Source: an uncultured bacterium (lineage in GTDB: Bacteria; Verrucomicrobiota; Lentisphaeria; Victivallales; UBA1829). Taken from it: a DNA stretch of 44,538 nt. This document shows, piece after piece, positions 1-43,505 of this stretch; the stretch's first letter is position 1, and each line of letters opens with the position of its first letter. The stretch covers positions 1-44,538 of the forward strand of contig CASERY010000150.1 of the NCBI GenBank assembly GCA_949290385.1, written 5' to 3'. Both the position numbers and the translations under genes were made by a program. The notes under the pieces were generated by a model, which saw only the letters and a list, made by a program, of their open reading frames with translations, made no database searches and was not told the origin of the DNA.

Positions 1-1433
1 ATTCTGTCATAAGCTCTTGCACTTAAGCCGAATTCTGTAATAGCATGGCGAATCAGGTTTTGCAGTTTTCCATCCAGTGCACAGTACTGAATCATCTGTG
101 CAGGCTCCATAAAAGCATTGCAGAAACAGTGTTTTCCATGAAACCGCTGGTTCTGAATCTCCCTTGCGCGAATCACTCTGGCACGAATCGATGCACTGCT
201 TTCTCCGCAAGGCGCCGCAATCAGTTCATTTTCTTTCAAGGCCGCCACTTCCACATGAAGATCAATGCGGTCCAGAAGCGGACCTGAAATTCTGGAACGG
301 TATTGCTGAATCTGAGGAGCACGACATCTGCAGGGATGCATGGGATCTCCCAGATGTCCGCACGGACACGGGTTCATAGCTGCCAGCAGAATAAAACGGC
401 ATGGAAATACAAAACTGCCCGATGCCCGGGAAATAGTTACAGATCCATTCTCCAGCGGTTGTCGCAACACCTCCAGCACATTCCGTTTGAATTCCGGAAG
501 TTCATCCAGAAAAAGCACACCATTGTGCGCAAGAGAAATCTCCCCTGGTTTCGGATCAGCTCCGCCTCCCAGAAGCCCCGCATCGCTTACAGTATGATGA
601 GGTGCCCGGAAAGGCCTCGTCCGCAAAATAGGCGTGTCAGGCCCCAGCAACCCAAGGATGGAGTGAATCCGGCTGGTTTCGAGAGTTTCCTCTTCAGTCA
701 TGGGAGGCAGAATTCCGGGAAGACGTTTCGCCAGCATACTTTTTCCAGATCCGGGAGGCCCGCAGAACAGCACATTGTGTCCGCCGGCAGCAGCAATTTC
801 CAAAGCTCGTTTAGCTGTCTGCTGCCCCTTAACCTCTGCAAAATCAGGGATCCCGCTCCAGTCCGGCTCTTCAAAAAGATTCCGGGCAGCCGATGAATCC
901 AGCGGCAGCAGATTCCCCTCCAGTGCCTCCACGGCCTCCTGAAGTGTCCGAACTCCATAAACGCGGCAGTCCGCCTAAGCTGCGGACGCTTCCCGGATAT
1001 TTCCGGCAGGAACAATCAGAGTCCGGATCCGTTTTTCTTTGCGGACCATCAATGCCGCCGGCAGTACTCCTTTCACTGGGCGTACAGTCCCGTCCAAAGC
1101 CAACTCTCCAAGAATAACCGACTCCTTCAGAGCCCCGCTGGAAATCTGTCTTCCCGCAGCAATGAGCCCCAGCGCGATAGGCAGGTCAAACGATGAACCC
1201 TCCTTGCGCATATCCGCCGGCGCCAGGTTGATAAGCGTCGCTCCGGAAGGATGGCTGTAGCCGCAGGCTGAAATTGCAGATCTCACTCGTTCCCGACTTT
1301 CACGCACGGCGGCATCAGGAAGCCCTACAATTGCGACAAAATCCTGTTCTCCACGTCCCGATGCATTGATTTCGATTTCCACAGGAACAGCATCAATTCC
1401 CAGCAGAGAAGCGGAAAATGTTTTATTCAGCAT
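1..1433 (-). CDS. comM: ComM/YifB-family Mg-chelatase-like AAA+ ATPase, 3' end off window, one in-frame TAG
   Basis: Family role: hexameric AAA+ helicase linked to branch migration during integration of transforming DNA. The N-terminal part has the ComM hallmark ([18 protein letters not shown]) followed by the [10 protein letters not shown] segment. A TAG at 975-977 (codon 153) is followed in the same frame by [14 protein letters not shown], the Walker A segment [36 protein letters not shown], and the C-terminal [10 protein letters not shown] motif that reaches the window edge. The TAG sits in the variable linker between the N-terminal domain and the AAA+ domain. I chose ATG 1433 (reads [14 protein letters not shown]) with AAGGAT upstream; a TTG six bases earlier is the alternative. 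Apart from the TAG the gene is intact, which argues for sense reading and against a pseudogene. Confidence 0.93.
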
Positions 1434-1513
1434 CTGCAATCTTATCCTTCCAAAATGAAATCATACTTCCCGGAAGACCTACCTTATTTTTCATCTTCTG
1501 AAGCCGACTTTTT

Positions 1514-2521
1514 TCAGCATGTTCCGGAAACGGTGAAATGCTGTGCTTCCAGATCCGCAGTCTTCTCCGGATAGTGACAGGCAGAAAAGTGCCCGCCGCC
1601 TAAATCTTTGAGTTCAGGTTCACATTCTCTGCAAAGCTCCGTACACATGGGGCAGCGTGTATGAAAGCGACAGCCTGCCGGCGGATCCAATGGGGACGGT
1701 ACATCACCTTTGAGTACAATTCTGTTCTTTTTTCCGCTTCCGCCAATAAGCGGAACCGACGAAAGCAGAGCCTTTGTATATGGATGCATGGGCCTGGCAC
1801 AGAGTTCTCCGGAAAATCCGCTTTCCACAATTTTACCCAGGTACATGACCATGATTCTGCGACTGATATGTTCCACAACCGCCAGATCATGTGCAATAAA
1901 AAGGAATGCAATCTGTGTTTTTTTCTGAATATCCTCCAGCAGGTTCACAATCTGGGCCTGCACGCTTACATCCAGGGCCGAAACAGGTTCATCGGCAATG
2001 ATAAAATCCGGTTTCACTGCCAGTGCTCTTGCAATACCGATTCTCTGGCGCTGCCCTCCGCTGAATTCATGCGGATAACGCATGGCATAATCCGGGTTCA
2101 ACCCAACCATTTCCAGCAGTTCAGCCACTCGTTCAACTCTTTGAAGTGTATTCAAGCTGGTATGCAGTTTCAAAGCCTCTTCCAGAATGGAAAAAATACT
2201 CATTCGCGGGTTTAAAGATGCATAGGGATCCTGAAAAATCATCTGAAAATGTCCGCGCATTTTCCGGAGTTTTTCTCCTTTCAACGCACACAAGTCCATT
2301 CCGTTCAGAAAAATGGAACCTTCTGTCGGTTTTTCAAGGCGCAGAAGCGTTCTGGCAAGTGTACTCTTTCCACATCCGCTTTCGCCTACGAGCCCAAGGG
2401 TTTCCCCTCGTTCCAAGGTAAAGGAAATACCATCCACAGCTTTTACAAAACGCCGGGGGGAAAACCATCTGCCGGATACAGGATAATACTTTTTCAAACT
2501 AAGAACTTCAAGCAGTGCCAT
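1514..2521 (-). CDS. Oligopeptide/dipeptide ABC transporter ATP-binding protein (OppF/DppF type)
   Basis: Cytoplasmic ATPase that would power peptide (or nickel/oligosaccharide) import together with a second ATPase, two permeases and a binding protein, none of which is adjacent here. Walker A GESGCGKS lies near residues 46-53, followed by the Q-loop [13 protein letters not shown], the signature [14 protein letters not shown], and Walker [13 protein letters not shown]. The C-terminal oligopeptide-transporter domain has the Cys cluster [21 protein letters not shown], which binds a metal cluster in some relatives. Start set at ATG 2521 (MALLEV) with GAGGG just upstream; the frame is open further upstream. 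Stop is TGA. About 335 aa, normal for the family. The substrate cannot be told from sequence. Confidence 0.9.
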
Positions 2522-3629: not shown

Positions 3630-3681
3630 TTCTTCTGTATTCAGTTTATTCTTTTATATTTCTATGGACAGATAAAAAACA

Positions 3682-3915
3682 TCAGTACATCCCGTTTTCA
3701 CAGGGACCAGACTGAATTCCACAAACTGCGACTTCTTTATATGTGGTATGGCATTCATCCGGCAGTTTATTTATCCTGAAGATTCTTTCCGATTGATATG
3801 TTTGAATATCTTTAAGAAATTCTGCCGCAGGCGTTGCATCATCAGCTGCAATGGTGTTGTACTGCTGGATGCAAAGCCTCGACACAGAAGAAAGAATTAC
3901 TGTTTTACTTGGCAT
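3682..3915 (-). CDS. Possible small hypothetical protein overlapping the rny stop
   Basis: A 77-codon frame opens at an ATG inside the last codons of rny (11-base overlap) and ends at TGA. Codon choice is similar to neighbours, and the middle (DDATPAAEFLKDIQTYQSER) reads like protein, with four Cys spread along it. There is no good ribosome binding site, only AGAG, and no family I recognise. It may instead be transcribed spacer containing the rny terminator: a weak TCCC/GGGA hairpin lies near its 3' end. Kept at low confidence. Confidence 0.25.
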   Translation of the reverse strand: MPSKTVILSSVSRLCIQQYNTIAADDATPAAEFLKDIQTYQSERIFRINKLPDECHTTYKEVAVCGIQSGPCENGMY

Positions 3916-5464
3916 ACTCTACGGATCTGGTTTCACGGATCACTGTAACTTTAATCTGACCCGGATAATTCATTTCCTTTTCAACTCTCAAACAGATATC
4001 GCGTGCAAGGACCTGAGCCTGAGCCTCTGAAATTTTTTCAGGCTGTACAACAACACGCACTTCGCGTCCTGCCTGAAGCGCAAAACAGGAATCCACGCCT
4101 GGAAAATCCTTGGCTATTGATTCCAGCTGCTCCAGCCGTTTCAAATAGAGTTCTGTTGTCTCGCTGCGGGCGCCCGGACGAGACGCACTCAAAGCATCAC
4201 AGGCATTGGCAAGCACCGCATAGATACTCGTAGCTTCCACTTCTCCATGGTGTGCAGCAACGGCATTGACCACATCTTTGTTTTCGTTATATTTGCGCAG
4301 GATATCCGCGCCGATGGCCGCATGCGTTCCTTCCACTTCATGGTCCACAGCCTTTCCAATATCATGGAAAAGACCGATTCTTCTGGCTTCCTGTTCATCC
4401 AATCCGAGTTCAGCTGCAATGGTTCCCATAAAGGCTGCCGTTTCAATGGAGTGCTTCAGCACATTCTGGGAGAAACTGTAACGGAACTGGAGACGCCCCA
4501 GCAGACAAATCAGAGGTTTGGGAACACCTTGCAGACCGCAGTCCAGTACAGCGCGTTCGCCCACATCAAAAATTTCTTCATCAATTTCCTTGCGGATTTT
4601 TTTGATAAGATCTTCAATGCGTGTAGGATGAATGCGTCCATCGGAAATGAGTTTTTCCAACAGACGTCTTGCCGTTTCCTTGCGGATGGGATCAAAGCAG
4701 GAAATAACCACTGCTTCCGGTGTATCGTCAATAAGAATATTCACTCCTGTGGCAGCTTCCAATGCACGGATATTGCGTCCTTCCCGACCGATGATACGAC
4801 CTTTCATTTCATCATTCGGCAGCGGAATAGTGGCTGTTGTGCGTTCATAAGTGCAGTCCCCGGCATAGCGCTGAATCGCATGAACCAGAAGAGACTGTGA
4901 TTCACGTTCAGCACGCTGTTTTGCTTCATCCATAATATCGCGGATCAGCAGGCCGCATTCGTTCTCGACTTCGCCCTTGAGCTTTTCCAGAATCATATGC
5001 TTAGCTGTTTCACGGTCCAGGGATGCGATTCTCTCCAGCTCGTCAATCTGGCGGGCAATTGTCTTTTTGACTTCCTCTTCTTTCTGGGCCAGGCGTTCCT
5101 TCATGACATCCAGGTCATGTTCTTTTTTCTCGGTATTTTTTATTTTTGCATCCAGAGAATCGCTTTTGCGTTCCAGATTCTCCTCTTTCTGATTCAGACG
5201 TTTTTCCAGCTGCTAAGCTTCCCGGCGACGTTCTTTAAGCTCGCTTTCCACTTCGTCCTTGATTTTCAGCGCATCGCTTTTTGCCGTGATGCGGGCTTCG
5301 CGCAGAAGCTGTTCTGCCTCCTTCTCCGCCTGCTGTTTCAATTCACCTGCAGCCTTGGCTGCTTTGGAACCACGAATGCGGATAATCACCATTTCCAGGA
5401 TCAGTCCTGCAATGACGCCTGCAATCAGTGCATAAGCCGGAAACATCCACTATTTAAAATCCAT
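3905..5464 (-). CDS. rny: Ribonuclease Y, two in-frame TAG codons
   Basis: Membrane-anchored endoribonuclease that initiates mRNA decay. In order: N-terminal hydrophobic anchor (YALIAGVIAGLILEMVII), long charged coiled coil, KH domain (IIGREGRNIRALEAATGVNILIDD), HD domain (GLFHDIGKAVDHEVEGTH), and C-terminal KVTVIRETRSVEYAK then TAA. Reading the two TAGs as sense gives about 519 aa, the normal length. The first TAG (5450-5452) is codon 5: ATG 5464 has GGGAG at good spacing, while the next Met at 5446 has none, so the real start precedes the TAG. The second TAG (5213-5215, codon 84) sits in the coiled coil in KERRREA-TAG-QLEKRLNQKEE; in RNase Y proteins I remember this segment as ERRxELQRLERRL, placing Gln at the TAG. 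Upstream neighbour fau ends 20 bases before the start. Confidence 0.95.
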
Positions 5465-5483
5465 TTTTCACTCCCACATGGTT

Positions 5484-7755: not shown

Positions 7756-9057
7756 ATGAATGCCGCAGCCCGTACAAAAGGCCTGCTTTTCAAACAGGTC
7801 TATGAAGATCTCTGCGAACGGATTCATTCCGCTGAATTTCCGCCAGGCAGTCAGCTTCCTACTGAGCCGGACTTGATTCGTCAGTATCAGGTCTCTATTA
7901 CGACTGTCCGAAAAGCGGTCCAGATGCTTGCAAACGAAGGTATTGTATCAAAAAGACAGGGACAGGGAACCTTTGTTCTGAAAGTTCCGCCAGTATATGC
8001 CTTTCAGCAGAATGCCCATGTATCTTCTCCGGAAGAACATCCGGAAGAACGGCATTTCTCTTCCGGCAGAAAGACTCCACAGATCCGTACGGTGGGTGTT
8101 TTCCTTCCCAAAACCAAACTCAAAGTCGAAGGAGACAGCCGGCACTGGACCCTGAATGTTCGCCGTCTGAACGGCATTTACGCCGCAGCCGGCAAAAACG
8201 GCATTTCAATATTCGTCCATGGCTTCGGAGAAAAGGCAGACATTGATTCTTTCGACGGTGTCATTTGCATGCCTTCCTATGCCTACGATCTTTCGGAAGA
8301 TGATTTGCGGCAGTCTTTAGTCCGACAACTTGAAAAATCCGGAAAGCCTTTTGTAACCGTTTCCGAATTTGATCCCCGTTTTGCATCCTCCCATTGGATT
8401 ACGGAACTTACAGAATCTGAATTTTATTCCTAGGTACAGTATCTGTTGAACAGAGGACACCGCAAAATTGCTTTGATGGGACCTGATCTCTCCTGGGAAA
8501 ATCCCCGTTATGCCGGATACCGCAAGGCACTGAAAAATGCCGGCGTGCCTTTTCAGGAAAATCTGATTCTGGAAAATCCGCTGTCGGATTCCTCCAGTGC
8601 CTATCAAACCTGTACAGAATTCATCCACAGTTTTGGCACATTGCAGGAAATGCTTCTTCATACGGATGCCATCTTATGTACAACGGATCTCCAGGCATAC
8701 GGAGTGTTGGACTGTCTGAAAAAAAATCATGTGCGCGTTCCGGAAGACATCAGCGTCATGGGTGTGGATAATCTGCCTGAATCAGCCCGGCATTTTCATT
8801 CGCTTACCAGTATGGAGTTTTCCGGACAGGAAATCGGAGAAAAAGCCCTTCTCCTTCTCCGGGAAGTTCTGGAAGGCAAATATCCCGGCGGCATTACCAT
8901 GTCATACCACGGTAAAATTTTTGAGCGGGATTCTGTATGCAGCAGACTCCCGGCCTCCGAAACAGGCGTTTTGCAGACTGACTTTCAGGGAAAAGATTTT
9001 TTCTCCGGCAGATGTGCAGGGATAGAAAGCAGGGTGAAAAAAAATTCTGAAAACTGA
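7756..9057 (+). CDS. GntR/LacI hybrid transcriptional regulator, one in-frame TAG
   Basis: The N-terminal winged helix of GntR type (LCERIHSAEFPPGSQLPTEP, then TTVRKAVQMLANEGIVSKRQGQGTFV) is fused to a periplasmic-binding-protein-like LacI sensor. The TAG at 8431-8433 (codon 226) falls inside the sensor: before it comes GKPFVTVSEFDPRF, after it VQYLLNRGHRKIALMG, the standard LacI helix and strand, then DAILCTTDLQAYGVLDCLK and VMGVDNLPESARHFHSLTSM, a classic LacI-family ending. Read through, it is 433 aa. Start ATG 7756 follows an in-frame TGA upstream. It precedes and probably controls the sugar cluster at 9165-13806 in response to a sugar ligand. The stop codon TGA lies in the loop of a hairpin. 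Confidence 0.9.
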
Positions 9058-14106: not shown

Positions 14107-14880
14107 TTAAATCACCTTGGAAAGAAAATCTTTCAAACGCGGATCCTTCGGATGACTGAAGAAGTCTTCAGGACTCCCTTCTTCCACAATTCTGCCATGA
14201 TCCATAAAAAGAATTCTGTCTGCAACTTCACGGGCAAAACCAATTTCATGCGTTACCACAATCATTGTCATTCCGCCGAGAGCCAGTTCTTTCATAAGTG
14301 CAAGCACTTCTCCGACCATTTCAGGATCAAGAGCAGAAGTCGGTTCGTCAAAAAGAATAACATCCGGATTCATCAGAAGTGCACGCACAATGGCAATACG
14401 CTGTTTCTGACCGCCTGAAAGCTGCTGAGGATATGCATTGCGTTTTTCATACAGACCAATACGTTTCAGCAGTTCCTCTGCTTTTGAAACAGCCTCTGCT
14501 CTTTTCATGCGGTGTGTCTTGAGCGGAGCAAGAATAATATTATTCAGGATCGTAAGATGCGGAAAAAGATTGAAATGCTGAAACACCATGCCGACTTTCT
14601 GCCGGAATGCATTGATTTTTATTCCGCGGCAGTTGATTTGTTTTCCTTCAAAAAAAATCTTTCCGTCTGTCGGTTTTTCCAGAAGATTCAGACAGCGGAG
14701 GAATGTACTTTTTCCAGACCCTGAAGGCCCTACAATAAAAACAACTTCTCCGCGTTTAATTTCAGTTGAAACGTCATCTAAAGCCCGTAGATTCGGAAAT
14801 TCCTTGATGATATGCTCAGCTTTGAAAATAATACCGCCGTTTTCTTCGGGAGAGGAAGCTGAAGAAAAATGCTTATTCAT
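14107..14880 (-). CDS. glnQ: Polar amino-acid ABC transporter ATP-binding protein (GlnQ/HisP type)
   Basis: 257 aa, stop TAA. Contains Walker [19 protein letters not shown], the Q-loop [14 protein letters not shown] (the typical FNLFPH of amino-acid importers), signature [15 protein letters not shown], Walker [20 protein letters not shown] and the H-loop [15 protein letters not shown]. It supplies ATP hydrolysis for import of a polar amino acid, with the permease and binding protein encoded upstream on the same strand. The start overlaps the end of the permease gene by 8 bases (ATGAATAA), once the permease's TAG is read through. Confidence 0.92.
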
Positions 14881-15589
14881 TGCTTTTCAATCTCCTTTCA
14901 AGTTTACCCAGCAGCCATGTCAGCACAATGACTATTCCCAGATAAATCTATGCCACTGCAATCAGAGGCAGGAATGCATCATAAGTCTGACTGCGTATGA
15001 TATCACCCGCTTTTGTCAAATCCTGAAGCGCTATATAACCAGACACACTGGTTTCCTTAATCAGTACAATAAATTCATTTCCCAGGGCCGGAAGAACATT
15101 TTTAAAAGCCTGAGGCAGAATAATATAAATCATTGTTTGAAGGTAGCTGAGCCCCAGACTTCTTCCCGCTTCCATCTGTCCTTTGTCCACGGACATGATC
15201 CCGCTTCTGATAATTTCTGCCACATAGGCCCCCGAGTTGATTCCAAAGGCAATCACTGCCACAAAAACTTTATCAGTGCAGGAAGAAAGAATGACAAAAT
15301 AAATAATCAGCAACTGCACTACCATAGGTGTTCCACGAATGATAGTCAGATACATTTTACAGATAAAATTCAGAAATCTGAGATTTCCAACCTTATCATG
15401 GGTCGACCGTATCACCGCCACTAAAAATCCCAGCAGAATACCTATCAGTACAGCAAAAAAAGCAATCTGCAAGGTGATTTTTAAACCGCTCCATAAATAA
15501 ATCCAGCGGTCATCCTTGATAAAATTCATATAAAAAGCAGTCTTCAAATCAGCAGACTGCTCCTGAAACCATGATAAAACAGCATTCAT
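14873..15589 (-). CDS. glnP: Polar amino-acid ABC transporter permease (HisM/GlnP type), one in-frame TAG
   Basis: Inner-membrane permease with several hydrophobic segments and the conserved loop [34 protein letters not shown] that contacts the ATPase. TAG at 14948-14950 (codon 214) interrupts the last membrane helix: [30 protein letters not shown], then TAA. In relatives the same helix continues as AxIYL and ends in LERRL, so the downstream part is native sequence. Without read-through the last helix would be lost and 75 bases would separate the genes. Start: I prefer ATG 15589; a TTG at 15610 with GGAG only two bases away is the alternative, so the N-terminus is uncertain. About 238 aa. Confidence 0.9.
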
Positions 15590-15725
15590 TTCATTCTTCA
15601 GTTTCTCCAATTCTCCAAAGAAATTGAAAATAGAAAAGACCGCCTCAGGCGTTTTTTAAATTCAAATTCAATTCTTTGAATTGGGATTGATGTTAGGTAT
15701 TTTTTCCGAATGAGTCCCAGACTCT

Positions 15726-15819: not shown

Positions 15820-15825
15820 AAGTCT

Positions 15826-18288: not shown

Positions 18289-19392
18289 TTATCCTTTTTC
18301 ATATAAGTTATTTGAAACGGCTTTCCCATTGCTGACTGTAATCACCTGGGCATTTTCAAGAAAAGCGTGTTCACAGTTTCTCAATGTTGTAAAAGCGTAA
18401 AAGACCTGTCCAGCGGACTATATTTTATCCAGAAACGCATTTTTGGCACGCTCATCCAGATCTCCAGTGGCATCATCAACCATGACAATTGTTTTTTCCG
18501 GACTTCGTGAACAGGAATTCAGAATATCGAATCCTGCCATTTTCAAGGCAAATGAAACCACTCTGCACTGTCCTCTGGAACCATAATTTCTTAAAGACTT
18601 TCCGCTGCAGATAAAATCAAAATCATCCAGATGAGGACCAAAAGACGTATATCCTTTTTCCTGATCTTTCTGAACAGAAGCATCCAGACGCTTCCGGTAC
18701 ACTTCTGCATCCTCCAGTTCATGGACAGCACGCATTTTGATTTCGCAGTCAGAGAGTTCCGGACGTATCTCCTTTAAAACCTGCTTCATGAAATCCGTCA
18801 GAATTCTAGCATATAAAAAACGTCTTTCTATGATTTTTGACCCGAATTCCGCCAGAACTGGATGATAAGCCTCCAGAACATGTCTATCCTGCTGAACTGA
18901 TCGTATCAATACGTTTCTGCTTTTTAAAGCCGAAGCATAACGCTGCAGATTTACAAAGTATTCCCGGTCCGTCATAGAAATGAACATATCCATAAAACGA
19001 CGGCGGACTGACGAAGCACCTACAATAATCTCCGGATCATCCGGAAGAAATGCCACCGTATTACAATGTCCTATGAATTCACTGGCTTTCCGTACAGGAT
19101 TCCCATTCATCCAAAGTTTTCGTTCATTTACTCCGAGCCTCAGTTCCATCCGGTTTTTAATATTTCCCTCACCCATGATGGATGAAATATGCATCTGTTC
19201 AGTTCCAATTTTTCTCATCTCCTGAACACGGCCTGTACGAAACGATCTCAGATTGGCAAGATAAAAAATGGCTTCAAGAAGTGACGATTTTCCCTGTCCG
19301 TTGGCACCACATAAAATGACAGATTTGGCATCAAAGCACAGATCCGCCTTTTCAAAATTTCTAAAATTTTCCAGATGAATCGATTGAATCAT
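18289..19392 (-). CDS. recF: DNA replication/repair protein RecF, one in-frame TAG
   Basis: ABC/SMC-like ATPase that loads RecA at gaps through RecOR. Walker A GANGQGKSSLLEAIFYLANLRSFR opens the protein; GSRGQCRVVSFALKMA is the signature region and MVDDATGDLDERAKNAFLDKI the Walker B/D-loop. TAG at 18418-18420 (codon 325) follows immediately; the frame then reads SAGQVFYAFTTLRN and VITVSNGKAV before TAA at 18289. RecF proteins normally continue with a GQVFxTxT strand and a final F-x-V-x-x-G motif, so this is the native C-terminus and the 367-aa total is normal. In the Bacillus protein, as I remember it, an IQ pair occupies the place of Ile-TAG. Neighbour dnaN is its usual partner. Confidence 0.94.
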
Positions 19393-21055: not shown

Positions 21056-21703
21056 ATGAACAAGAATGTCAATAAGCATGCGGACGAACTTTTCCTAAGA
21101 TTTCCTGAATTGAAATGCATCTCGGAAGATCTCCACTCTATATATAGTATACTCCAAAATGTATTTTTCAATAGCGGCACCCTTTTTGTTTGCGGGAATG
21201 GAGGAAGTGCCTGTGACGGGGAGCATATTGCAGGAGAACTGATGAAATGTTTTCGCATGAAGCGGAAAATGCCTGCTGAACTTTCAGAACGTTTTGAAAG
21301 AATTCTGGGGCCTGAGGAAAATATTGCAGATGAGCTTGAAATGGGATTCCGCTGCCTGTCTCTGAACAACCATCCCGGTCTTTCCAGCGCATACATCAAT
21401 GACAGAAATCCTCTGATGGTCTATGCCCAGCAGCTCTTTGTCCTTGGGCGCAGAGGAGATGCTTTGATTGGTATCAGCACTTCCGGCAATTCCCGGAATG
21501 TATACAATGCATTGAAAACGGCAAAAGTCATGGGGATCTCCACAATTCTTCTGACGGGCCAGAAATGCGGCATCTGTGAAAAATATGCTGATTTTAAAAT
21601 CAAGGTTCCTGCATGTGAAACCTATCGTATTCAGGAATATCATTTGCCGGTTTATCACACTTTATGTTCCATGATTGAGGAAGGTTTTTATGGAGAAGAA
21701 TAA
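21056..21703 (+). CDS. gmhA: SIS-domain phosphosugar isomerase, GmhA/DiaA-like
   Basis: 215 aa, stop TAA. The SIS-fold phosphosugar-binding loop LFVCGNGGSACDGEHIAGEL and the second loop GISTSGNSRNVYNALKTAKVMG are those of sedoheptulose-7-phosphate isomerase, which starts ADP-heptose synthesis for the LPS core; the DnaA-binding protein DiaA belongs to the same family. C-terminal RIQEYHLPVYHTLCSMIEEGFY fits the family. The residues between the two loops are longer than in the E. coli enzyme. Ribosome binding site is weak. The last 14 bases overlap the uppS start, so the two are coupled. Confidence 0.75.
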   Translation: MNKNVNKHADELFLRFPELKCISEDLHSIYSILQNVFFNSGTLFVCGNGGSACDGEHIAGELMKCFRMKRKMPAELSERFERILGPEENIADELEMGFRCLSLNNHPGLSSAYINDRNPLMVYAQQLFVLGRRGDALIGISTSGNSRNVYNALKTAKVMGISTILLTGQKCGICEKYADFKIKVPACETYRIQEYHLPVYHTLCSMIEEGFYGEE

Positions 21704-22406
21704 GCTCAGACATGTAGCTGTCATTATGGATGGGAACGGTCGGTGGGCTGCTGAACGGGGACTTGAGCGTGCCGAAGGACACCGTGAAGGAGCTAAAAGA
21801 GTTTTGAGTTTTATTGAATCGCTTGCCGGTTATGACATTTCCTACGTTACACTGTATGCTTTCAGCACAGAAAACTGGAAACGTTCCAGTGAAGAAGTTT
21901 CTACTCTGATGAATCTGCTCTGTGAATTTCTGGATTAGAATCTTCATGTTATGAAGGAGCATTCCATCCGTCTTCTGGCTCTTGGACGTATCGACGGGCT
22001 TCCGTGTGAATGCGTGCAACGGCTGAGAAAAGCAGAACGGGAGACTGCTGAAAATTATCGCTATACGGTGATTCTGGCTCTGAATTACGGGGGACGCTGT
22101 GAAATTGCGGATGCTGCAAAAAAAATTGCCATGGAAGTTCAAAAGGGAATCCTGGATCCTGAAACAATCAGTGAGCAGACTGTGGCAGATCATCTTTATC
22201 TGCCGGAGATTCCAGATCCCGATTTGATGATCCGGACAAGTGGAGAAGAACGTATCAGCAATTTTCTTCTGTGGCAGCTTTCCTATGCGGAGTTTTATTT
22301 TACGGATGTTTACTGGCCTGATTTTGACGAGCATGAATTTCAAAAAGCTCTGAATTCATTTAATACCAGAAAACGAAGATTTGGAGGGAGAAGAACATCA
22401 TGTTGA
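21690..22406 (+). CDS. uppS: Undecaprenyl diphosphate synthase, one in-frame TAG
   Basis: cis-Prenyltransferase making the C55 carrier for peptidoglycan and LPS sugars. N-terminal HVAVIMDGNGRWAAERG holds the catalytic Asp; YVTLYAFSTENWKRSSEEV and the C-terminal PDLMIRTSGEERISNFLLWQLSYAEFYFTD...WPDF are diagnostic. TAG at 21936-21938 (codon 83) lies between LLCEFLD and NLHVMKEHSIRLLALGRIDGLP, a variable helix just before the conserved I-R-x-x-x-x-G strand. Read-through gives 238 aa, a normal length. ATG 21690 has GAGGAAGG five bases upstream. Its TGA overlaps the cdsA ATG by 7 bases, giving a gmhA-uppS-cdsA operon. Confidence 0.95.
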
Positions 22407-23266
22407 AAACCTTTCTTGCAAGAAGTTTCAGTTCCATTGTTCTTTTATAGCTGTTTTGTACGGCCATTTTCTGGAAAGGGCCGGTGGGATATTCCATCTT
22501 TGCTTTGCTGGTCATCTTGATGTGCATTTAGACGATGCGTGAGGTGGGAAGTATTTTAAAAAATTGCGAATTTCCCTTTTATACAGGTCTTGGGGCATTT
22601 TTTTGCACCGCCGCCGCTATGGTGACTTTATGGAAAGGGTTGTCGGCAGGGATGCTTATTCCTGTGCTGTTCTGTATTCTGCTATGGTGGTTGCTCTTGA
22701 GATCCTGCAATCAGAGAGACAGGCTGTTGAAATTATGTGTCAGCAGCGGTTTTTTCTTTTTGTTCTGCACACCTATTTGTATTTTAATTTCCATCTATGG
22801 ATACCGGACACCCGAGGGAATACAGGATGGTCCGATTTTATTCTTTTTCCTGATTCTTTGTACAAAAATAGGGGATATTGGAGCCTATGTATTCGGAACG
22901 CTTTCCAGCGTGCTGATGAAAGGTGGCAATCACAAGGCTGTTCCATCTGTAAGCCCCGGGAAATCTTATGAGGGATGTGCCGGAGGATTGATATGCACGA
23001 TTGTTTTATGCTACCTTTTGTGGCCTCATTGCGGACTGGAACTATATGACAGATGGATTTCACTTCCATTGGGAATTGTGCTGTATTTCGGTGGAGCCAT
23101 TGGAGATCTTGCAGAATCCTCTTTTAAACGTACATGCAAAGTTAAGGATTCAGGCCATACGCTTCCTGGAATCGGAGGAATTTTAGATCTTGTGGACAGC
23201 CTGATGATCAACAGCATGATTTTCTGGATTTTCCTGAAGCATGTTCTTCATATGACACTTGAATGA
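22400..23266 (+). CDS. cdsA: Phosphatidate cytidylyltransferase, two in-frame TAGs
   Basis: Inner-membrane enzyme making CDP-diacylglycerol from phosphatidate and CTP. Multiple hydrophobic helices; the family motif is at the C-terminus, SFKRTCKVKDSGHTLPGIGGILDLVDSLM, preceded by SPGKSYEGCAGGL and TKIGDIGAYVFG. TAGs at 22448-22450 (codon 17, VLL-TAG-LFC) and 22529-22531 (codon 44, MCI-TAG-TMREV) both lie in the N-terminal membrane region. Starting at ATG 22400 the protein is 288 aa, normal for CdsA, and the start overlaps uppS in the standard uppS-cdsA order. Starting after the second TAG would remove the first helices and leave a gap of more than 100 bases. Stop TGA. Confidence 0.92.
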
Positions 23267-25808: not shown

Positions 25809-26420
25809 TTATTCAAAAGAGCGTTGAAATCCCAAAAGGACTCCAATAATTTTCAAAGGTTCATCCAATAGATTTTTCTCTTTTTCCGACCATGGATAAT
25901 GACCAATTCTTAATTGAATGTAATGATCGTTGACTTCGTGGCATTTTGCAAGAAATACAAAATCATTTCTTTCGAGAACCAGAATCTGGTCAGGATGCAG
26001 ATATTCTGGGCATCCTGTACCAACACGGATTAAATCACCTGCCTGAAAACCCAGTCCACATTGAGCGTCAGTAGCATCAAGTTTCCAGACAAATGCACTT
26101 TCGGGTTTTTGAAGCTGAAAGAAGCAGGCTGATTTATGAAGTCCGCTTAAAGGTTTTTCAAAGTCTTCAAATTCCGAAAAATCATACGGGTTTGTAAAAG
26201 CATGCTATTCCGGTCCGTTTGTAAGACGGATGCTTCTGGCTTTGGAGGATTTTGATAAAATCCCCTTCTTCTGAAGAGCCTGAATGTGGACAAAGACTGT
26301 GGAAGGACAAAGATCCAGTTTATCTGCAATTTCTGTGATGGTAGGGGGTACGGAATTCTTGCTGGAGAAGTCCTTGATGACCTGAATGATGTTTTTTTGC
26401 CTTGAAGTGAGTGATTTCAT
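25809..26420 (-). CDS. LexA-like repressor with degenerate peptidase domain, one in-frame TAG
   Basis: The N-terminus is a canonical LexA winged helix: MKSLTSRQKNIIQVIKDFSS, VPPTITEIADKLDLCPSTVF, LQKKGILSKSSKARSIRL. TAG at 26205-26207 (codon 72) lies in the linker after LTNGPE. The frame continues for 132 codons to TAA, giving 203 aa, the usual LexA length, with an S24-like shape (FQAGDLIRV matches the GDL strand of LexA). By my alignment the catalytic Ser is Ala, the Lys position is displaced, and no Ala-Gly cleavage site is visible, so self-cleavage is unlikely. AAGAGGT precedes ATG 26420. Targets unknown. Confidence 0.75.
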
Positions 26421-31486: not shown

Positions 31487-31629
31487 TCAAGTCCGGATTT
31501 TCTGCAGAACAAATGCAACTGCTGAATCCCAGCGGTGAATCCATGCTGTTTCCGGTTGCATAGCAGCGGACAGATAAGCTTCTTCAGCTGAATTGCTGAA
31601 TTTACTGAATTGAAATACTTTGGGTTTGA
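31487..31629 (-). CDS. Possible small frame overlapping the lipoprotein end
   Basis: In another frame the minus strand reads VLKPKVFQFSKFSNSAEEAY, then AAMQPETAWIHRWDSAVAFV, to TGA at 31487. The Trp-rich ending resembles C-termini of (alpha/alpha)6 glycosidases. There is no start codon before the internal Met and no ribosome binding site. It could be the native C-terminus of the lipoprotein reached by a frameshift, a remnant of a glycosidase gene, or chance. The rest of the gap to 31366 shows nothing. Confidence 0.25.
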
Positions 31630-32264
31630 GGACGAATGATCACTTCAAAAATTTCTGTTTTACTGGAGACGGAATTCAAATTCAGTTCTGCTTTCATGGC
31701 AATTTGAACTGTGCGATGATTTTTCGGAATTTGAAAATTTTCCAGGAAATGAAGCGGCACATCAATCAACGCACTGTTTCCGGGAGAAAGCGTTAAAATG
31801 GTGCGCTGATATTCAATACGGCTGAAATTTTTATCCGGATGAACTTGAATCCAGTCTTTTTCTTCAATCTGAGAGGCATCTTTCCCAGGCTCACAGAGTG
31901 CATAATAAACGCATACATTCTAGGATTCGCTGGAAAACCAGTCAGGAATTGTAATATCCTTTAGATCTGCATTGCGCAATCTCAATTCAAGCATCTGTCC
32001 GGGTTTTCCTGCAGTATATTCGCTTCTGCGAATACGGCGTTCTAGTGCAAGTTTTCCCTGAATGGGTTTCATAAAACTTTTTTGTGGTGTTGAATCCATT
32101 CCCGCTTGCTGTTCTTCCTACTGGGAGCAGCCGTTTGAAAAAATACAGGAGAGTGAAAGCAAGAAGATCCATGCAGTTAAAAAGACATTTTTCCAAATAT
32201 TTTTCCGGAAAACGTCTGAAATTATTCCGGTATTTGTTTTCTGAACACAGTTGCTGTTGAACAT
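31602..32264 (-). CDS. Hypothetical lipoprotein, two in-frame TAGs
   Basis: Read with TAG as sense this is 220 aa ending in TAA. N-terminal basic stretch, hydrophobic core (VFLTAWIFLLSLSCIF) and a lipobox-like SNGC, so lipidation after signal peptidase II cleavage is likely. TAGs at 32118-32120 (codon 49, CSQ-TAG-EEQQAG) and 31920-31922 (codon 115, SSES-TAG-NVCVYYALCE). Between and after them codon use is normal and the frame is uninterrupted; the C-terminal half alternates hydrophobic and polar residues like a beta sandwich. No family recognised. ATG 32264 has GGAAGGA about ten bases upstream. Lies between a small membrane protein gene and the debranching enzyme gene. Confidence 0.72.
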
Positions 32265-32349
32265 ATCATTCAATTCCTTCCTTGATCTTGTTGATTCCTC
32301 GGCTGGATTTTGGGTGAAAAAGCATACTGCACCTGTCTGGAACAGAATC

Positions 32350-32670
32350 TCAGGATGTACGCTGCTGCATATTCCCAATCACGTAGAGGACAACCAGGAT
32401 ACATCCAATAATTTTAATGGCTCCAACCTGCGGTGTTACCCAGATATCCATTGCGCTTACCTCGCCTTCCGTATAGGACTGAGCTAAGTGAATTCCCAGA
32501 AAAACCCAGATGGAGCAAGCCATAAAAGTCAGGAGAAGAAAAACAATGCAGCCGCCTACGGAGAAAACCAGTGCAAGCATGTTATTCTGAATCCAGCGGA
32601 AGCATTTATAGCAGGGGCTTTGCGTTGTACTGGAACTGACTCTGGGTCTTTTGGAAAGATATACGCCCAT
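32350..32670 (-). CDS. Small membrane protein, function unknown
   Basis: 106 aa from ATG 32670, which has AAAGGAGTG at good spacing; stop TGA. A basic Cys-containing N-terminus (SPCYKCFRWIQNN) precedes two predicted membrane helices, LALVFSVGGCIVFLLLTFMACSIWVFLGI and VGAIKIIGCILVVLYVIGN. No known family. Same strand as, and 86 bases before, the lipoprotein gene. The pair may form an envelope-associated unit. The spacer up to 32968 holds an 8-bp inverted repeat CCCGTTTG/CAAACGGG and no gene. Confidence 0.55.
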   Translation of the reverse strand: MGVYLSKRPRVSSSTTQSPCYKCFRWIQNNMLALVFSVGGCIVFLLLTFMACSIWVFLGIHLAQSYTEGEVSAMDIWVTPQVGAIKIIGCILVVLYVIGNMQQRTS

Positions 32671-32968: not shown

Positions 32969-33808
32969 TCAACCCTGAGCTGTAGCTCTCTATTCCATCT
33001 CATCTCTCTATTCGTCGGAGAGTCCGGTATATTTGGGATTGCCGGGCATGATTCCGCGTTTGGATTCCTTGATGAAGTTCATGAATACATGCACTTCCGG
33101 TGTTACAGAGTCAGATTTTTCAATCTGTTCCAGGGCATTTTTAGTGTTCAGTCCTTCAAAGAAATAGGTTTTAATAGCCTTCCGGATTGCCAGACGGGTT
33201 TCATTGCTGTACCCTGCCCTGCGGAGTCCAATGGTATTGGGGCCGGTGATGTAGTTGGTTTCACGCAGCATGCAGAAGGGAGGAATATCCTGGCCGATGA
33301 GACAGCCTGCTCCGATCATAGCCAGCGCCCCGATTCTGCAGAACTGGTGGATTTTTGTATAACCGCTGAGTACAGCCCCTTCCCCGATCTGGACATGGCC
33401 GGAGATTGCGGTATGATTAGCCACGGTCACGCGGTCGGAGATAATGACGTCGTGAGCCACATGAACAAAAGCCATAAGCAGAACGTGATTTCCCACAACT
33501 GTTTTCAGAAACTCAAAGGGTGGTCTGTGAATGGTAACATATTCACGGATGACGGTATCGGAACCGATCTCACAGAAAGAACGGATTCCCTTATAAAAGC
33601 GGTGGTCCTGCGGTTCGGCGCCTACAAGGGCTCCGAAATAGATGCGGCAACGGGGACCCACAGTTGTATACTGGCAGATTTTCACATGAGCATCGATGTA
33701 ACAGTCATCTCCGATTTTCACGTCATCTTCAATGACTGTATAGGGCCCAATTTCAACATTTTTGCCGATTTCGGCTTTTGGAGAAATTACAGCTGTTGGG
33801 TGTATCAT
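32969..33808 (-). CDS. lpxA: Acyl-ACP--UDP-N-acetylglucosamine O-acyltransferase, two TAGs near the C-terminus
   Basis: First enzyme of lipid A synthesis, cytoplasmic trimer. The hexapeptide-repeat helix is clear (IHPTAVISPKAEIGKNVEIG and onward), with the catalytic His in LLMAFVHVAHD (residue 116) and the C-terminal helical domain (RKAIKTYFFEGLNTKNALEQIE). The frame meets TAG at 33008-33010 (codon 267) after KYTGLSDE and a second at 32990-32992, then TGA at 32969, giving ending ...LSDE-TAG-RDEME-TAG-RATAQG. With Gln this is a coherent hydrophilic tail. LpxA would already be functional at 266 aa, so the first TAG could be a true stop; the rest of the window makes read-through more likely. AAGGA precedes ATG 33808. 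Confidence 0.93.
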
Positions 33809-35483: not shown

Positions 35484-37484
35484 ATGACTGATAATACCCC
35501 CATACAAAAAAATTTGCTGACGCGTTTGGCAGAAGCTCTTGCAGCACTGCTGATTTTTCTTCTTCCCGTTAAAATGGCTCTAATGGTTTCTATTCCGGAA
35601 ATGCCCATGGACTATCCATACGACTTCTGGAGCATTGTTCTAATCAACTGGCCTATGCCTGTCTTTGCAGTTCTCAGCGGTCTGCTGCTTTTGCTGACGC
35701 TGGCGGCCGGATGGACTGAAGATATATTCAGAAGAAATCAAAATCATTTATGTACAGAGCAGGAGAGAAAAAGGTTTTTCCCATGGATGAACCTTTATGG
35801 AGGTGTCTGGATTCTGGCAGGTTTGGTTTCCTTCCTGGGAATGATTAATGCTTCATGCCGGGAATATGCGGATCAGATGATTTACTATACTTTTGGAGTG
35901 ATATCCTTCACCCTTTCTGCAGGCATGCTCTTAAAGCGCAATCCACGAATTGTGAAAGTGTTTACCGGAGCAGTGCTGGCCGGGCTGGTTCTTGCAGTGC
36001 TTGTAGGTATAGATCAGTATTTTTTCGGTTTTCAGGAGCTGGAAAATTATTTGAAAGAACAGGCTGCTGAGGCCGGAGTTGATCAGATTAATGGGAAACT
36101 GCAAATCAACCTGGATGAAAAACGCATTACATCAAATTTTGCCATTTCCAATATCTTTGGCGGTTATCTGGCGGCTCTGATGCCTTTGCTGGCTGCAGTT
36201 ATCTGGAGGTTTGCATCAGAACGAGTCCAGCCGTAGAAGGTTTCCCGTTGGGTTTTAACGCTTCCTGTGATGATGGTATGTGTTTTTGTACTGGTTAAAA
36301 CGGGCAGCCGCGGAGCCTTTTTTGCGATGATTGCAGGTGGACTGGCAGCATGTTTCATGCTGGTTTCCAGCTGGAAAGGCAGGATCGGCATGATTGCAGG
36401 TGGACTGGCAGGTTTTGGTTTTTTTGCAGCAGTTGTTGCCATGGGCAGAGGTTTTACATCCATGCAGTTCCGAATGGATTATTACTGGGCGGCATTCCGG
36501 ATGATGCTGCGTCATCCGTTTGCAGGGACCGGGTGGGGGGATTTCTTTCATGACTATCTGGGAATGAAGCTGCTGCATAACAGTGAAGCTCCCCATAGCG
36601 CCCACAACATGCTTCTTTTATTCGGAGCCCAGACAGGAATTGCAGGGTTTCTGATTGTAACGGCGGCTCTGCTGATTCCATGGATCGGCGGTTTGAGTCT
36701 TATTATAAAACTGCGCAATGACGGAAAATCCATTTGGAAGGAAAATGACGGAATTTTCATACTGGCAATTCTGCTGGGATGTCTGATTTTCGGAATGGAT
36801 TCACTTCTGGAAATCAGCTATGAATGTCCGGCTTTTATCTGTATATGGAATGTGCTTGCTTTAATTCTGCTGCAAAAAACAGAGGAAGTGTCTGAAATAA
36901 GAATGACGGATCATAATCAAAGTCTTCCGTCAAATTCCTCTGGAAAGCCTTCAGAATGCTTCTGCCGCAGTCTGAAAAAAATGGCGGGTGTTCTCTTAAC
37001 TGTGGTTGCGGTTTTTACAGTTTGGGATGGATGGCGCATGGGGATCCGGGAAGCCCGTTTGGCAGATTTGAGCAATGCCGTTCATGCTGGACTCATGCAG
37101 GCATCTCAGGGGAAAACAGCTGCAAACGGATTATCTTCCCCTGCCCTGTCTGGAACTGGCATTGGAGGGGTATCGCCCGCAAGCATACAAAAATTATTGA
37201 GACTTGCTTTGGAAGCGGGATAGGAATCTCCTTTCCCGTACGCGGAAGCTGCCAGATATTTTGCAGCGGTGGGAATGCTGGATCAGGCGGAAGAATGTAT
37301 TGAAAAGGCTATTGCCAGAGCTGAGCTGCGTCCGGGATTTTATCTTTTCCGTGCAAGACTGCATTACAGAAGAAGCGGAAAAACTGCCGATGCCCAGGAG
37401 GATCTGGCCAAAATTCGTGCTCTCTGTCCCACAAACTATGAATACGATGTGCCGGATGAAGAACTTTTGACGGGAAGAAAATAA
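35484..37484 (+). CDS. O-antigen ligase/polymerase-like membrane protein with TPR-like tail, two in-frame TAGs
   Basis: Read with TAG as sense, 666 aa ending in TAA. About ten hydrophobic segments carry the Wzy/WaaL pattern: TSNFAISNIFGGYLAALMPLL, LVKTGSRGAFFAMIAGG (the conserved SRG/A motif) and MLRHPFAGTGWGDFFHDYL with SAHNMLLLFGAQTGIAGF (G-x-G-x-x-x-F and H-N-x-x-L). TAG 36234-36236 (codon 251) lies in a cytoplasmic-type loop, SERVQP-TAG-KVSRWVLTLP, and TAG 37221-37223 (codon 580) in the soluble tail, LEAG-TAG-ESPFPYAEAARYF. The tail that follows (GMLDQAEECIEKAIARAELRPGFY...) is TPR-like, as in many bacterial O-antigen ligase-like proteins. Likely role: ligation or polymerisation of surface polysaccharide. 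Confidence 0.85.
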
Positions 37485-38681: not shown

Positions 38682-38692
38682 GGAAAATATTC

Positions 38693-40236: not shown

Positions 40237-41754
40237 TTATTTGGAGGATGAAAAGGGGGCCTTGCATTTCCAGAGATTTTCAATAACCATTTGAACGGCT
40301 TTTTTCTGAATGGCATTTTCCGGACTTAAAATATGTCTTGCAGCAAAGAAAAAGGAGCCACGAATTTCCGGATGCAGCATATTGTACTTCAACTGGCTGG
40401 CTAGTTCTCCGGGATTCTGCCAATGTCCGTCGGTACCCTCTTTATAAATGCTGTGGCCGATATAAAGGTCTACAGATGTTCCTTTCACCTGATCTGCCCA
40501 CCAGTCTGCAAGCGCGGCGTAAGGAGCTGTTTCATGTCCGAAAGCCCAGTAGAGCTGGGGGACAATGTAATCTACCCAGCCCTCTTTGATCCATTTACGT
40601 GAATCGGCATAAATGGCATAATATGACTGCATTCCGGAAGTCAGGGATCCTGACGGATGCGACTGAACTGCTTGTGTGGAAGAAGATTTCTGATTTTTCC
40701 CCTTTGAATTTGGGAGCGGACGGTTGGCCCAGATCCCGAACGGACTTATGCCAAAACGAATTTGTGTTTTCTTTTTCTGACTGTACAGACGGACAAGTGA
40801 ATGGATAATCTGAATCTGTGAATTGACATTGTTTCTGCGCCAGTCATCTATGCTGGAAAAACTTTTGCCATAGCGTCTGTAGGTTGCAAGGTCTGCATCG
40901 CCAATGCCGCTGTAGGGATAAAAGTAATCATCCAGATGAACTGCGTCAATCTGATAGTTCTCCAGGACTTCCCGAATGGTGTCGCAAAGAAACATCTTGA
41001 CTTTAGGGTGTCCGGGATCCAGCATGAGCAGACGCTTGCCGTCCTTCTGTGGGACTGTCAGTACGCATTCCGGATTCTTAACTGCAAAATTTTCCGGAGA
41101 AAGCGATGCCAGATATTGCTGTTTTGTCAGCTTTGTCCCATTATTGATGCGGTAAGGGTTGAACCATGCGTGGAACTCCATGCCGAACCGATGTGTTTCA
41201 GAAATCATAAATGCTAGAGGATCAAAGTTTTTATCTGAAAAACCAACCCCTTCTCTTCCCGTGAGATAACGGGAATATGGATTTAGTTTTGACGGATAAA
41301 AGGCGTCATTTAATGGACGAATTTGAAAAATGACGATATTGAACCCGGCATTTTTGATTTGACGCATCATTCGGGAATATTGATTTTTAAATTCTGCAGA
41401 GGTCCGGGTTTTGGGGAAATCCAGGTTCTCTATAGTGGCGATCCAGATTCCCCGTGCCTCCTTGCGTTTCGGCAGATATTGTTTGGGGATATAAACACGG
41501 CTGGAGGAACGGGTTCCCGCATAACGGACAGGCGCTTTCCGAACCCTGTCCCAGACAAGTTCCTATCCTCCTCCGGATCCGGCGGCGCCTGAAGCAGCAG
41601 AAGAAGAAAAAGAAAACATGAAAGTAATCAGAAAAAGGGCTGTGCAGAAACAGTGAGACAGAATGCTGCAGTTACTACGGTCCGTCCGTACTTTCTGCCG
41701 GATGCTGCCGTTTCGGTGGAAAAGTGAGGAAGTAAACAGAAAGAAAGATTTCAT
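40237..41754 (-). CDS. Family-10-like glycoside hydrolase (YngK/DUF4015-like), one in-frame TAG
   Basis: 505 aa, stop TAA. Catalytic-domain hallmarks follow the TAG: EARGIWIATIENLDFPKTRT, KNAGFNIVIFQIRPLNDAFY, LEFHAWFNPYRIN-type sequence (here MEFHAWFNPYRIN), VHLDDYFYPY, FGISPFGIWANRP and YIVPQLYWAFGH. The N-terminus has a hydrophobic segment (CFCTALFLITFMFSFSSSAA), so it is probably exported. TAG at 41563-41565 (codon 64, GSGGG-TAG-ELVWDRVRKAPVRYAGTR) lies in the linker before the barrel. ATG 41754 overlaps the stop of the upstream hydrolase by ATGA; if the TAG were a stop the signal segment would be a free 63-residue peptide. Substrate unknown, probably an amino-sugar glycan by family. Confidence 0.88.
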
Positions 41755-43505
41755 TGTTCAGAACAATCCGCTAAAAAGGCTGCAAGCACCAGGAATACAC
41801 TGGCTGACCAGGATAGTGTACGGTCCTGCAGCCCTTCTCCGGTTAATGCATTGAAGTTTTCACTGAATCCGTGTTGTGCGCACATATCGCAGTAACGGCG
41901 GGCAATTTCACAGGCGAATTCCTTTTCTCCGCTGTCCAGGAGTCCGCTGAAGATCAGGAGGGTAGGGGGAGCCCAGACGGGACCGCGCCAATAGCCGTCC
42001 GGCTTGTAGAAAGGACTGGATGGCTATTCAGAGGCAAAACCATGGCTTGTAAGAAAGCGGTTTGGATCTTTGAGTGTCCGGATCATTTCTGCACGCATGG
42101 CAGCAGGAAGACGTTTTGCTGCCACAAGAGATAAATAAGGAATAAGACTGTCGCCTTTCTGATGGATAAATCCGGACTGTGGACTGAACGCCAGGAACTC
42201 TCCTTTTCTATACATTTCTGAAGACAACTGACGTACAAGACGGTCACAGGCCATCTGCCACTCAAGGGCTTTGGACGGCTGACAGGATGCTTCTGCAATA
42301 TCAGCCAGAAATCCTGTCTGATAAATAAGATAGCCGAGCAGTTCCGGCGAGGAGAGGGGCGGCTGCTGAATAAACCAGCTGCTGTTGTCCAGTCCGGAGT
42401 CGTTGCCGTGATAGTACAGGGGATAGCCCGTATGATCCGGGTCTCTGACATCCAGCCAGAAGCGAGTCCATTTTTCAAGGATTCGAAAGACAGGAGTCAG
42501 CCGTTCTCCTGCCGTGAAAAATTCCGGATTCCGGTAACACATTTGTGCATATGCCCATCCATGGACAGGCGGTTTGGTGAAGACCCGCATCTTGATTTCG
42601 CCGGAAATCAGGTCTGGAAGACATCCCTGTCTGTCCATCTGGTCCATGATCACCATAAACTGATCGTAGGCCATTTCCGGATGGGATTCCGCCAGCGCTA
42701 TTGCATTGAAACAGTGATCCCATGCCCAGATTCCGCTCATGAAATATTTGGATACAAGCATGGCTCTGCGCTTTACGTATCCCCAGGGAGATACAAAAAA
42801 AGACCAGTTCATGAAAGCCGCTTTTACCATGGCATCATGCCAACAGGGGGGACAGCGGAAGCCGGAAAGAAATGTTTCAAATTCCTGTCGGGTCTCTGCT
42901 TCTATTTCGTCAAAATCACGCCATTTCCGGTCCAGGGGCCATTCTTCCTGGGATTCCAGAATGACGCCTGCAGCCATTTCCAGGTTATTCGGCATAAAAT
43001 CCAGGGTAAATCCGCCGGAGTCTGTTCCATTCCAGCGTGAATGGAGTTGCATACGACCTGATTCGAGTTTAAAATGATAGAAGAAATTGTGATAGTTTCC
43101 CCCTTGGATTGCAATAGAGCGCACCCGGTCCGGCCGGACTTGAAGAGCAATCAGTCCTTTCGTCAAATCCGGAATTTGACGAAAGCGGATTCCAAGATCA
43201 GGTGATTGAAAACGGACAGAATCATTTCCGTCAAAAATAAAACGGACTGAACGAGAATGACATGTGCTGCCTGTAAGGCAGGAAGCTGTAAAGCGCCATT
43301 GAACATCTTCAAGGACATTCCCATCTTTATCCAGAAGCTCCACCGCGTAGAGAGGCATCAGATTACAGGTAACACGCACATTCCGCAGAAAAAGAAGCGG
43401 TTTTTCAAGCTGGGGAAACTGCTTCTTCGAAAAAATGGAAAAGCACATCCAGGATCCGGAACGGCTGAATGGAATTTCTTCAGGATTCATAAGAAAATCC
43501 GTCAT
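41751..43505 (-). CDS. (alpha/alpha)6-barrel glycosidase, GH63/GH37-like, one in-frame TAG
   Basis: 584 aa, stop TGA. Beta-rich N-terminal domain, then FMSGIWAWDHCFNAIALAESHPEMA (catalytic Trp-Asp-His region), QMDRQGCLPDLIS, WAYAQMCYRN, YYHGNDSGLDNSSWF (family motif with likely acid Asp), and RYCDMCAQHGFSEN. TAG at 42024-42026 (codon 494) sits in GFASE-TAG-PSSPFYKPDGYWRGPVWAP: the sequence after it is the highly conserved YWRGPVW motif and the closing WSASVFLVLAAF helix, without which the barrel would lack its last helices. ATG 43505 has AGGAG ten bases upstream. The TGA overlaps the next gene's ATG. Likely alpha-glucosidase or mannosylglycerate-type hydrolase, cytoplasmic. Confidence 0.88.

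Follow-up and report, generated by a model that had tools for sequence, protein, structure and literature searches.

What does UAG mean in a genome whose conserved genes are interrupted by TAG? The question is raised by an uncultured member of the Victivallales (Verrucomicrobiota; assembly GCA_949290385.1), in which the 44,538-nucleotide stretch of contig CASERY010000150.1 analysed here, referred to as the window, contains 18 in-frame TAG triplets in 13 open reading frames. An original prediction, made from the letters alone, had listed these triplets and proposed that UAG is a sense codon throughout the genome; every position was checked and holds the triplet, as TAG in plus-strand genes and as CTA in minus-strand genes. 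The window is contig C150 of a metagenome-assembled genome (MAG) of 2.68 Mb in 168 contigs, 78% complete and 2% contaminated, and the best matches of its gene for release factor 2 (RF2) were to named Lentisphaeria and Victivallales MAGs, many from the rumen, at up to 80% identity. Since prfA, the gene for release factor 1 (RF1), is missing from its usual place and UAG lies inside conserved genes, the codon probably encodes an amino acid here. We lean slightly towards an account in which RF1 was lost and UAG is a sense codon, predicted to be read mostly as Gln at tolerant positions by near-cognate tRNAs, with no dedicated tRNA bearing a CUA anticodon.

The relatives used for comparison include no second genome of the same genus; their DNA for residue and stop-codon comparisons comprised 1.56 Mb of one relative, G008, and 0.26 Mb of other loci. 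When open reading frames of G008 were searched against 810 kb of this genome (30% of its length), the 247 high-scoring segment pairs, spanning 83,135 codons, contained 88 internal TAGs versus 15 TGAs and 8 TAAs, and the TAGs occurred in 61 of the 247. The mirror search in G008, the sole relative used for this two-way count, gave 10 internal TAGs, 8 TGAs and 11 TAAs in 84,156 codons. In segments aligned at 30% identity or more, with no stops in the relative and the best hit kept where hits overlapped, TAG accounted for 111 of 96,837 codons and affected 78 of 317 segments. We prefer this figure to the 116 homolog-bearing open frames that hold TAG when counted from stop to stop, because some of the TAGs in those frames precede the start codon. 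TAG sites were found on 24 of the 26 contigs examined, with an uneven distribution (p = 0.0003; C89 high, C16 none), and the aligned proteins that carry them include RpoC, AlaS, RecJ, DnaJ and MreB as well as RF2. One protein of the RND family has six TAGs and three paralogs in this genome that also hold an in-frame TAG; in a search of 36 relatives, 35 of which were matched, TAG appeared among the matches listed only in one broken fragment from G007. The densest stretch, on C89 (locus L284), has 18 TAGs in 5,467 aligned codons, and a search of 41 genomes with one of its proteins, which holds seven TAGs, yielded full-length homologs in G008 and G016 alone; one G016 match to this protein contains one TAG and one TAA.

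The original prediction had also claimed that UAG is not a stop, from its own count of 18 TAA, 13 TGA and no TAG at the ends of 31 genes. Among 222 homologous segments reaching the C-terminus, the relatives (mostly G008) stop at TAA in 112, at TGA in 107 and at TAG in 3. In this genome, a TAG follows the aligned part in 7 of the 222 segments, and in no more than 3 of these does it come within 4 residues. This agrees with the claim: UAG hardly serves as a terminator, the candidates numbering no more than three genes among the 222 segments. As TAG ends only 3 of the 222 relatives' homologs, UAG was probably a rare stop before RF1 was lost, as the codon-capture model requires.

The best match to the RF1 profile TIGR00019 in this assembly scored 268.7 bits against a cut-off of 423 and was identified from its sequence as prfB, the gene for RF2. 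The cut-off was passed by 56 of the 61 genomes searched, this genome counted among the 61; below it fell this genome, G001 (415.8 bits, taken as prfA), and G016, G034 and G046, the last three being assemblies that are 69 to 78% complete. Across the phylum, 285 of 288 genomes had a prfA match at E <= 1e-90, and those without one were this genome, G185 and G218. The gene also has a conserved setting, which provides the stronger proof. In 28 of 30 relatives' loci with the best-scoring prfA matches, rpmE lies directly upstream of prfA, and an ABC transporter gene adjoins prfA in at least 12 genomes of the family, the sameness of that transporter gene having been checked in four loci only. Three relatives' loci have the order rpmE-prfA-ABC transporter, and a fourth, that of G008, has prfA followed by the ABC gene with no rpmE within the stretch. 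In this genome, rpmE (C43, 944-1144) is followed about 400 bases on by the ABC gene, with no prfA between them, and searches of this locus with the prfA proteins of seven relatives found no significant remnant (best E 0.14). The RF1 gene is gone from its conserved site. The original prediction had anticipated that RF1 would be absent or altered, and its absence extends to a place that is assembled, in an assembly that is itself incomplete.

RF2 itself carries an in-frame TAG. An RF2 with altered motifs was considered and rejected, as SPF and GGQ are both present, with Tyr after GGQ in 24 of 31 relatives' matches. G185 (95% complete) and G218 (92%) were considered as further RF1-less recoded genomes and likewise rejected: since their ABC domains, 44 and 19 respectively, hold no in-frame stop, versus 3 TAGs in 35 such domains here, their missing prfA looks like an assembly gap. 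The absence of prfA alone can be such a gap, because G016 also lacks prfA, yet the best RND match there has no in-frame TAG.

To identify the amino acid for which UAG stands, we used a likelihood test whose substitution tables were estimated from the very alignments under test. As a positive control, 59 of 61 sense codons recovered their own amino acid by at least +0.64 nats per site over background; ATG and TGG, as the sole codons of their amino acids, are not judgeable in this test. For TAG, no amino acid beat background at 53 sites, the best being Gln at -0.17 nats per site. The residues opposite the 111 TAG sites were Ala (22), Gln (12), Glu (9), Leu (8) and Lys, Ser, Phe and Thr (7 each), all others being rarer, with gaps at 2 sites that were omitted from the likelihoods; over the other 109, the single-relative likelihood gave -0.32 nats per site for Gln and -0.36 for Ala. 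A profile test covered 15 TAG sites in five proteins (RND, prfB, SBP-permease, DUF1015 and permease-glycosidase), with homologs kept at a minimum of 45 to 60% identity and at least 8 per site (about 20 to 120 per site), leaving out the seven-TAG C89 protein and one TAG-bearing protein without relatives' loci. Its sums were negative for every amino acid, the best being Ala at -7.8 and Gln at -8.4; an ordinary codon at these 15 sites would be expected to reach +24 to +26, with a 1st percentile of +11 to +15. Individual sites differed in what they accept: among close relatives, one column held only Tyr or Phe and another Arg, Lys or Gln, and a third held only Ala, Gly or Ser in all homologs. At the TAG within RF2, the 31 named Lentisphaeria loci have Gln in 13, Arg in 6, Lys and Ala in 4 each, Ser in 3 and Glu in 1.

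Variability is higher in TAG columns than elsewhere (entropy 1.88 versus 1.09 bits), and in a rate-aware fit the better-aligned TAG sites evolve two to three times as fast as the average. This fit gave Gln +12.3, Ala +7.6 and Lys +6.5 nats at 75 better-aligned sites, and Gln +8.2 and Lys +2.5 at the 23 best. Against entropy-matched columns, Gln alone reached a p value under 0.05 (z 2.5, p 0.009, with no correction for the 20 tests). Pro was favoured by a free-rate variant of the single-relative likelihood and was judged an artefact, because only 3 of the 111 sites have Pro and its mismatch profile mimics that of exposed sites. Of all codons, TAG was the most depleted where segments reached 65% identity or more, at a ratio of 0.42. 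Gln is thus the best of poor fits, and the alignments suggest that UAG behaves as a rare codon at tolerant positions with a weak Gln flavour.

We also searched for a tRNA that could read UAG. The assembly yielded 46 tRNA genes, 45 with anticodons assigned by ARAGORN and one truncated gene read by eye as Glu-TTC, representing 36 anticodons; the CUA anticodon was absent from all 46 in this 78% complete assembly. A loose search (E up to 10) added just one hit, of 13.7 bits. A pattern combining the CUA anticodon with a T-loop gave 12 hits versus 51 for the reversed control, and ARAGORN found only the known tRNA-Gln(TTG) and tRNA-Arg(TCT) at the loci of these hits. When its thresholds were lowered, ARAGORN produced (cta) calls solely amid totals of 1,639 and 2,547 hits that were almost all false, and these calls were rejected. 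So was a tRNA-like piece at a contig edge (C164, 78-121, minus strand; locus L268), which has TCTA and a T-loop-like end and forms no cloverleaf by eye or by ViennaRNA. The ordinary amino acid meaning that the original prediction assigned to UAG is therefore not supported: three kinds of search found no CUA tRNA in the assembly, and UAG leaves no single-residue signature in the test by which 59 of 61 sense codons were recognised. A separate feature of the tRNA-Gln genes is that both (C104, 12443-12513, locus L033; C83, 26011-26081, locus L036) have discriminator A73, where both of those in G008 have G73; this difference could bear on Gln identity or on mischarging. A tmRNA is present, and its tag ends in TAA.

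These observations can be arranged in the following order. UAG would first have become a rare stop in the family; RF1 would then have been lost; and UAG codons would afterwards have accumulated where several residues are tolerated. Their predicted readers are foremost tRNA-Gln(CUG) and perhaps further near-cognate tRNAs, and RF2 would terminate genes at UAA and UGA. UAG would then be caught between the loss of its old meaning and a firm new one. Whether this amounts to a natural unassigned-codon state, with RF1 gone, UAG captured by no tRNA and about one UAG per thousand codons read ambiguously by near-cognate tRNAs, is for us an even call. The simplest account, with reader and inserted residue both inferred, makes this genome a natural counterpart of Escherichia coli without RF1. 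In such strains, UAG is read as Gln, Tyr and two further residues, and frameshifting, stalling and tmRNA rescue at UAG were measured, according to the relevant passages of one study (PMC6207430); corresponding passages of a second report Gln, Tyr and Trp (PMC4434889).

Several results weigh against this account. The strongest objection is that UAG in housekeeping proteins would be easier to sustain with a dedicated tRNA: E. coli without RF1 stalls at UAG and calls on rescue, yet UAG is found here in RpoC and AlaS. With a MAG of only 78% completeness in 168 contigs, a CUA tRNA could simply be missing. tRNAs for Ile, Ser-GCT, Ser-GGA, Ser-CGA, Ala-TGC, Arg-CCG and a third CAT were also not found; these, about seven, would be expected here, in part because G008 has them, and because they are likewise missing, the missing CUA tRNA is no proof of absence. 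Altered anticodon stems were looked for in the near-cognate tRNA-Gln, Tyr, Trp and Glu, and none was found, all having full 5-bp stems. The case for Gln is also open to challenge. Ala outnumbers Gln opposite TAG (22 versus 12 of 111 sites); over all 109 sites, the rate-aware fit puts Ala (+7.5) just over Gln (+6.9), a tie; the entropy-matched p of 0.009 for Gln would fail a 20-test correction, with Ala at 0.057 and Ser at 0.18; residues one step from UAG are not enriched in TAG columns (0.42 versus 0.39, p 0.29); and other rare codons are nearly as depleted as TAG in conserved segments (TTA 0.47, ATA 0.48, AGG 0.50).

The main rival keeps the loss of RF1 and adds a tRNA-Gln(CUA) that was not assembled, so that UAG would be read as Gln after a recent capture, with most UAGs at fast-evolving sites. 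We regard it as possible, at distinctly less than even probability. At well-aligned sites no single meaning fits better than Gln, which also tops the entropy-matched test and is the commonest residue at the UAG of RF2 (13 of 31 loci), and UAG in RpoC, AlaS and RF2 would seem to require efficient reading; in addition, 36 anticodons were found and about seven more would be expected. Against this stand the three kinds of search that yielded no CUA tRNA, the 15-site Gln sum of -8.4 where an ordinary Gln codon would give about +26, and the UAGs in columns of Tyr and Phe only (close relatives) or Ala, Gly and Ser only (all). It is unlikely that a CUA tRNA missed by the assembly gives UAG a fixed meaning other than Gln, for example Ala or Ser. 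In favour of this reading, no residue faces TAG more often than Ala, which draws level with Gln when all sites are fitted and leads the 15-site sum very narrowly, and tRNA-Ser(CGA), one base from CUA, is present in G008 and was not found here; the entropy-matched test, however, leaves both Ala and Ser above 0.05, and Gln leads at well-aligned sites.

Somewhat less likely again is the survival of prfA on an unassembled part of the genome, with UAG having a dual meaning or being suppressed by some tRNA. The MAG is incomplete, genes can move, and the G016 assembly, which lacks prfA and has no in-frame TAG in its best RND match, shows that absence alone can be a gap; but the conserved place of prfA is assembled and empty of it, and TAG is left with at most three candidate genes to terminate. 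A single MAG in which TAG density varies between contigs would also be compatible with sequencing error, with pseudogenes or with contaminating DNA from a recoded organism. We consider such an artefact very improbable, as the strong rise is in TAG alone and not in TGA or TAA, TAG sites lie on 24 of 26 contigs, and contamination would leave the absence of prfA between rpmE and the ABC gene unexplained. Pyrrolysine, a known amino acid at UAG in some prokaryotes, is refuted within this assembly, where no PylS exceeds the cut-off (best hit 20.2 versus 178 bits), no tRNA-Pyl is among the tRNAs found and UAG sits in ordinary housekeeping genes.

Returning to near-cognate reading after RF1 loss, the closest precedents in bacteria concern UGA, which is read as Trp in Mycoplasmatales and some insect symbionts and as Gly in Gracilibacteria and Absconditabacteria, RF2 having been lost there. 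This genome resembles them in that a stop codon turns sense genome-wide and its release factor is lost, RF2 there and RF1 here; unlike them, it has yielded neither a cognate tRNA nor a clear amino acid, both of which are known there. The UAG-to-Gln codes of phages and eukaryotes, of the NCBI table 15 type, share with it the sense reading of UAG and Gln as the best single guess, but here a bacterial chromosome rather than a phage is concerned, no suppressor tRNA was found and the Gln signature is weak. Pyrrolysine-using prokaryotes also read UAG as sense, and differ from this genome, which has no PylS over the cut-off and lacks RF1. Recoded E. coli without RF1 is similar in having no RF1, no cognate tRNA found, UAG freed from its stop role and termination by RF2; that system is man-made with UAG cleared from the genome, whereas this one is natural and has UAG inside housekeeping genes. 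Codes with a reassigned UAG are described for ciliates, algae and phages. For a bacterial chromosome, pyrrolysine aside, we found no report in the open-licence literature, preprints being outside its scope. A 2021 article states, in the passages concerned, that the bacterial stop reassignments then known were all of UGA and that Gln is the commonest change in eukaryotic nuclear genomes (PMC8629427). In another system, a tRNA-Trp(CCA) with a 4-bp anticodon stem, a stop codon is likewise read by a near-cognate tRNA without an anticodon change; the paper concerns UGA, with UAG in three of its passages (PMC13092985), and tRNA-Gln, Tyr, Trp and Glu here have 5-bp stems.

The genome looks like a natural case of RF1 loss in which RNA polymerase, a tRNA synthetase and RF2 all carry UAG. 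It opens the sequence of steps in a reassignment to testing: does loss of the release factor come first, can a codon persist with no assignment, and does a new meaning begin as near-cognate Gln? If the unassigned state is true, genetic-code evolution would have been caught between the loss of the old meaning and a new capture. As 78 of 317 aligned segments carry TAG, about a quarter of the conserved genes here would be broken up by standard gene callers, which may lower completeness estimates and keep other genomes of this kind from notice.

The 18 TAGs of the window are as follows (match and domain limits in residues).
975..977, minus strand: codon 153 of a YifB/ComM-type ATPase (gene 4-1433, cut at the window edge), TIGR00368 match 6-476, 561 bits.
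5213..5215, minus strand: codon 84 of RNase Y (gene 3908-5464), TIGR03319 match 11-519, 672 bits.
5450..5452, minus strand: codon 5 of RNase Y, ahead of the family match and weaker.
8431..8433, plus strand: codon 226 of a GntR/LacI-type regulator (gene 7756-9057), NCBIfam PurR-type match 223-396, the Pfam domain beginning at 227.
14948..14950, minus strand: codon 221 of an amino-acid ABC permease (gene 14876-15610), match 39-242, Leu in the relative.
18418..18420, minus strand: codon 325 of RecF (gene 18292-19392), TIGR00611 match 2-333, Gln in the relative.
21936..21938, plus strand: codon 83 of UppS (gene 21690-22406), TIGR00055 match 7-232, Gln in the relative.
22448..22450, plus strand: codon 17 of CdsA (gene 22400-23266), PF01148 match 8-280.
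22529..22531, plus strand: codon 44 of CdsA (gene 22400-23266), inside the same PF01148 match 8-280.
26205..26207, minus strand: codon 90 of a LexA-like regulator, directly past the DNA-binding domain and weaker.
31920..31922, minus strand: orphan open reading frame 31605-32378, no family, weak.
32118..32120, minus strand: the same orphan frame 31605-32378, no family, weak.
32990..32992, minus strand: codon 273 of the LpxA frame, beyond the family end (255 of 279 residues).
33008..33010, minus strand: codon 267 of the LpxA frame, beyond the same family end (255 of 279 residues).
36234..36236, plus strand: codon 251 of an O-antigen-ligase-like protein (gene 35484-37484), ahead of Wzy_C (263-392).
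37221..37223, plus strand: codon 580 of the same O-antigen-ligase-like protein (gene 35484-37484), past Wzy_C (263-392).
41563..41565, minus strand: codon 64 of a GHL10 protein (gene 40240-41754), ahead of the GHL10 match 100-438.
42024..42026, minus strand: codon 507 of an MGH1-like glycoside hydrolase (gene 41754-43544), PF22422 match 272-580.

It had been claimed that nearly every one of these TAGs is followed by conserved motifs of its family. This stands for 9 of the 18, which lie inside a Pfam or NCBIfam match; the other nine are weaker, and since they fall in termini, linkers, an orphan frame or outside the matched domain, "nearly every one" was an overstatement. The 23 window genes of the codon-usage set end in TAA (14) or TGA (9), a set in which a TAG stop is excluded by design because TAG was translated as sense. 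The LpxA frame extends about 24 residues beyond the end of its family (window 32972-33040), and both of its TAGs lie in this extension. This C-terminal tail may have arisen once a former TAG stop was no longer recognised, in which case the two TAGs could be relics.

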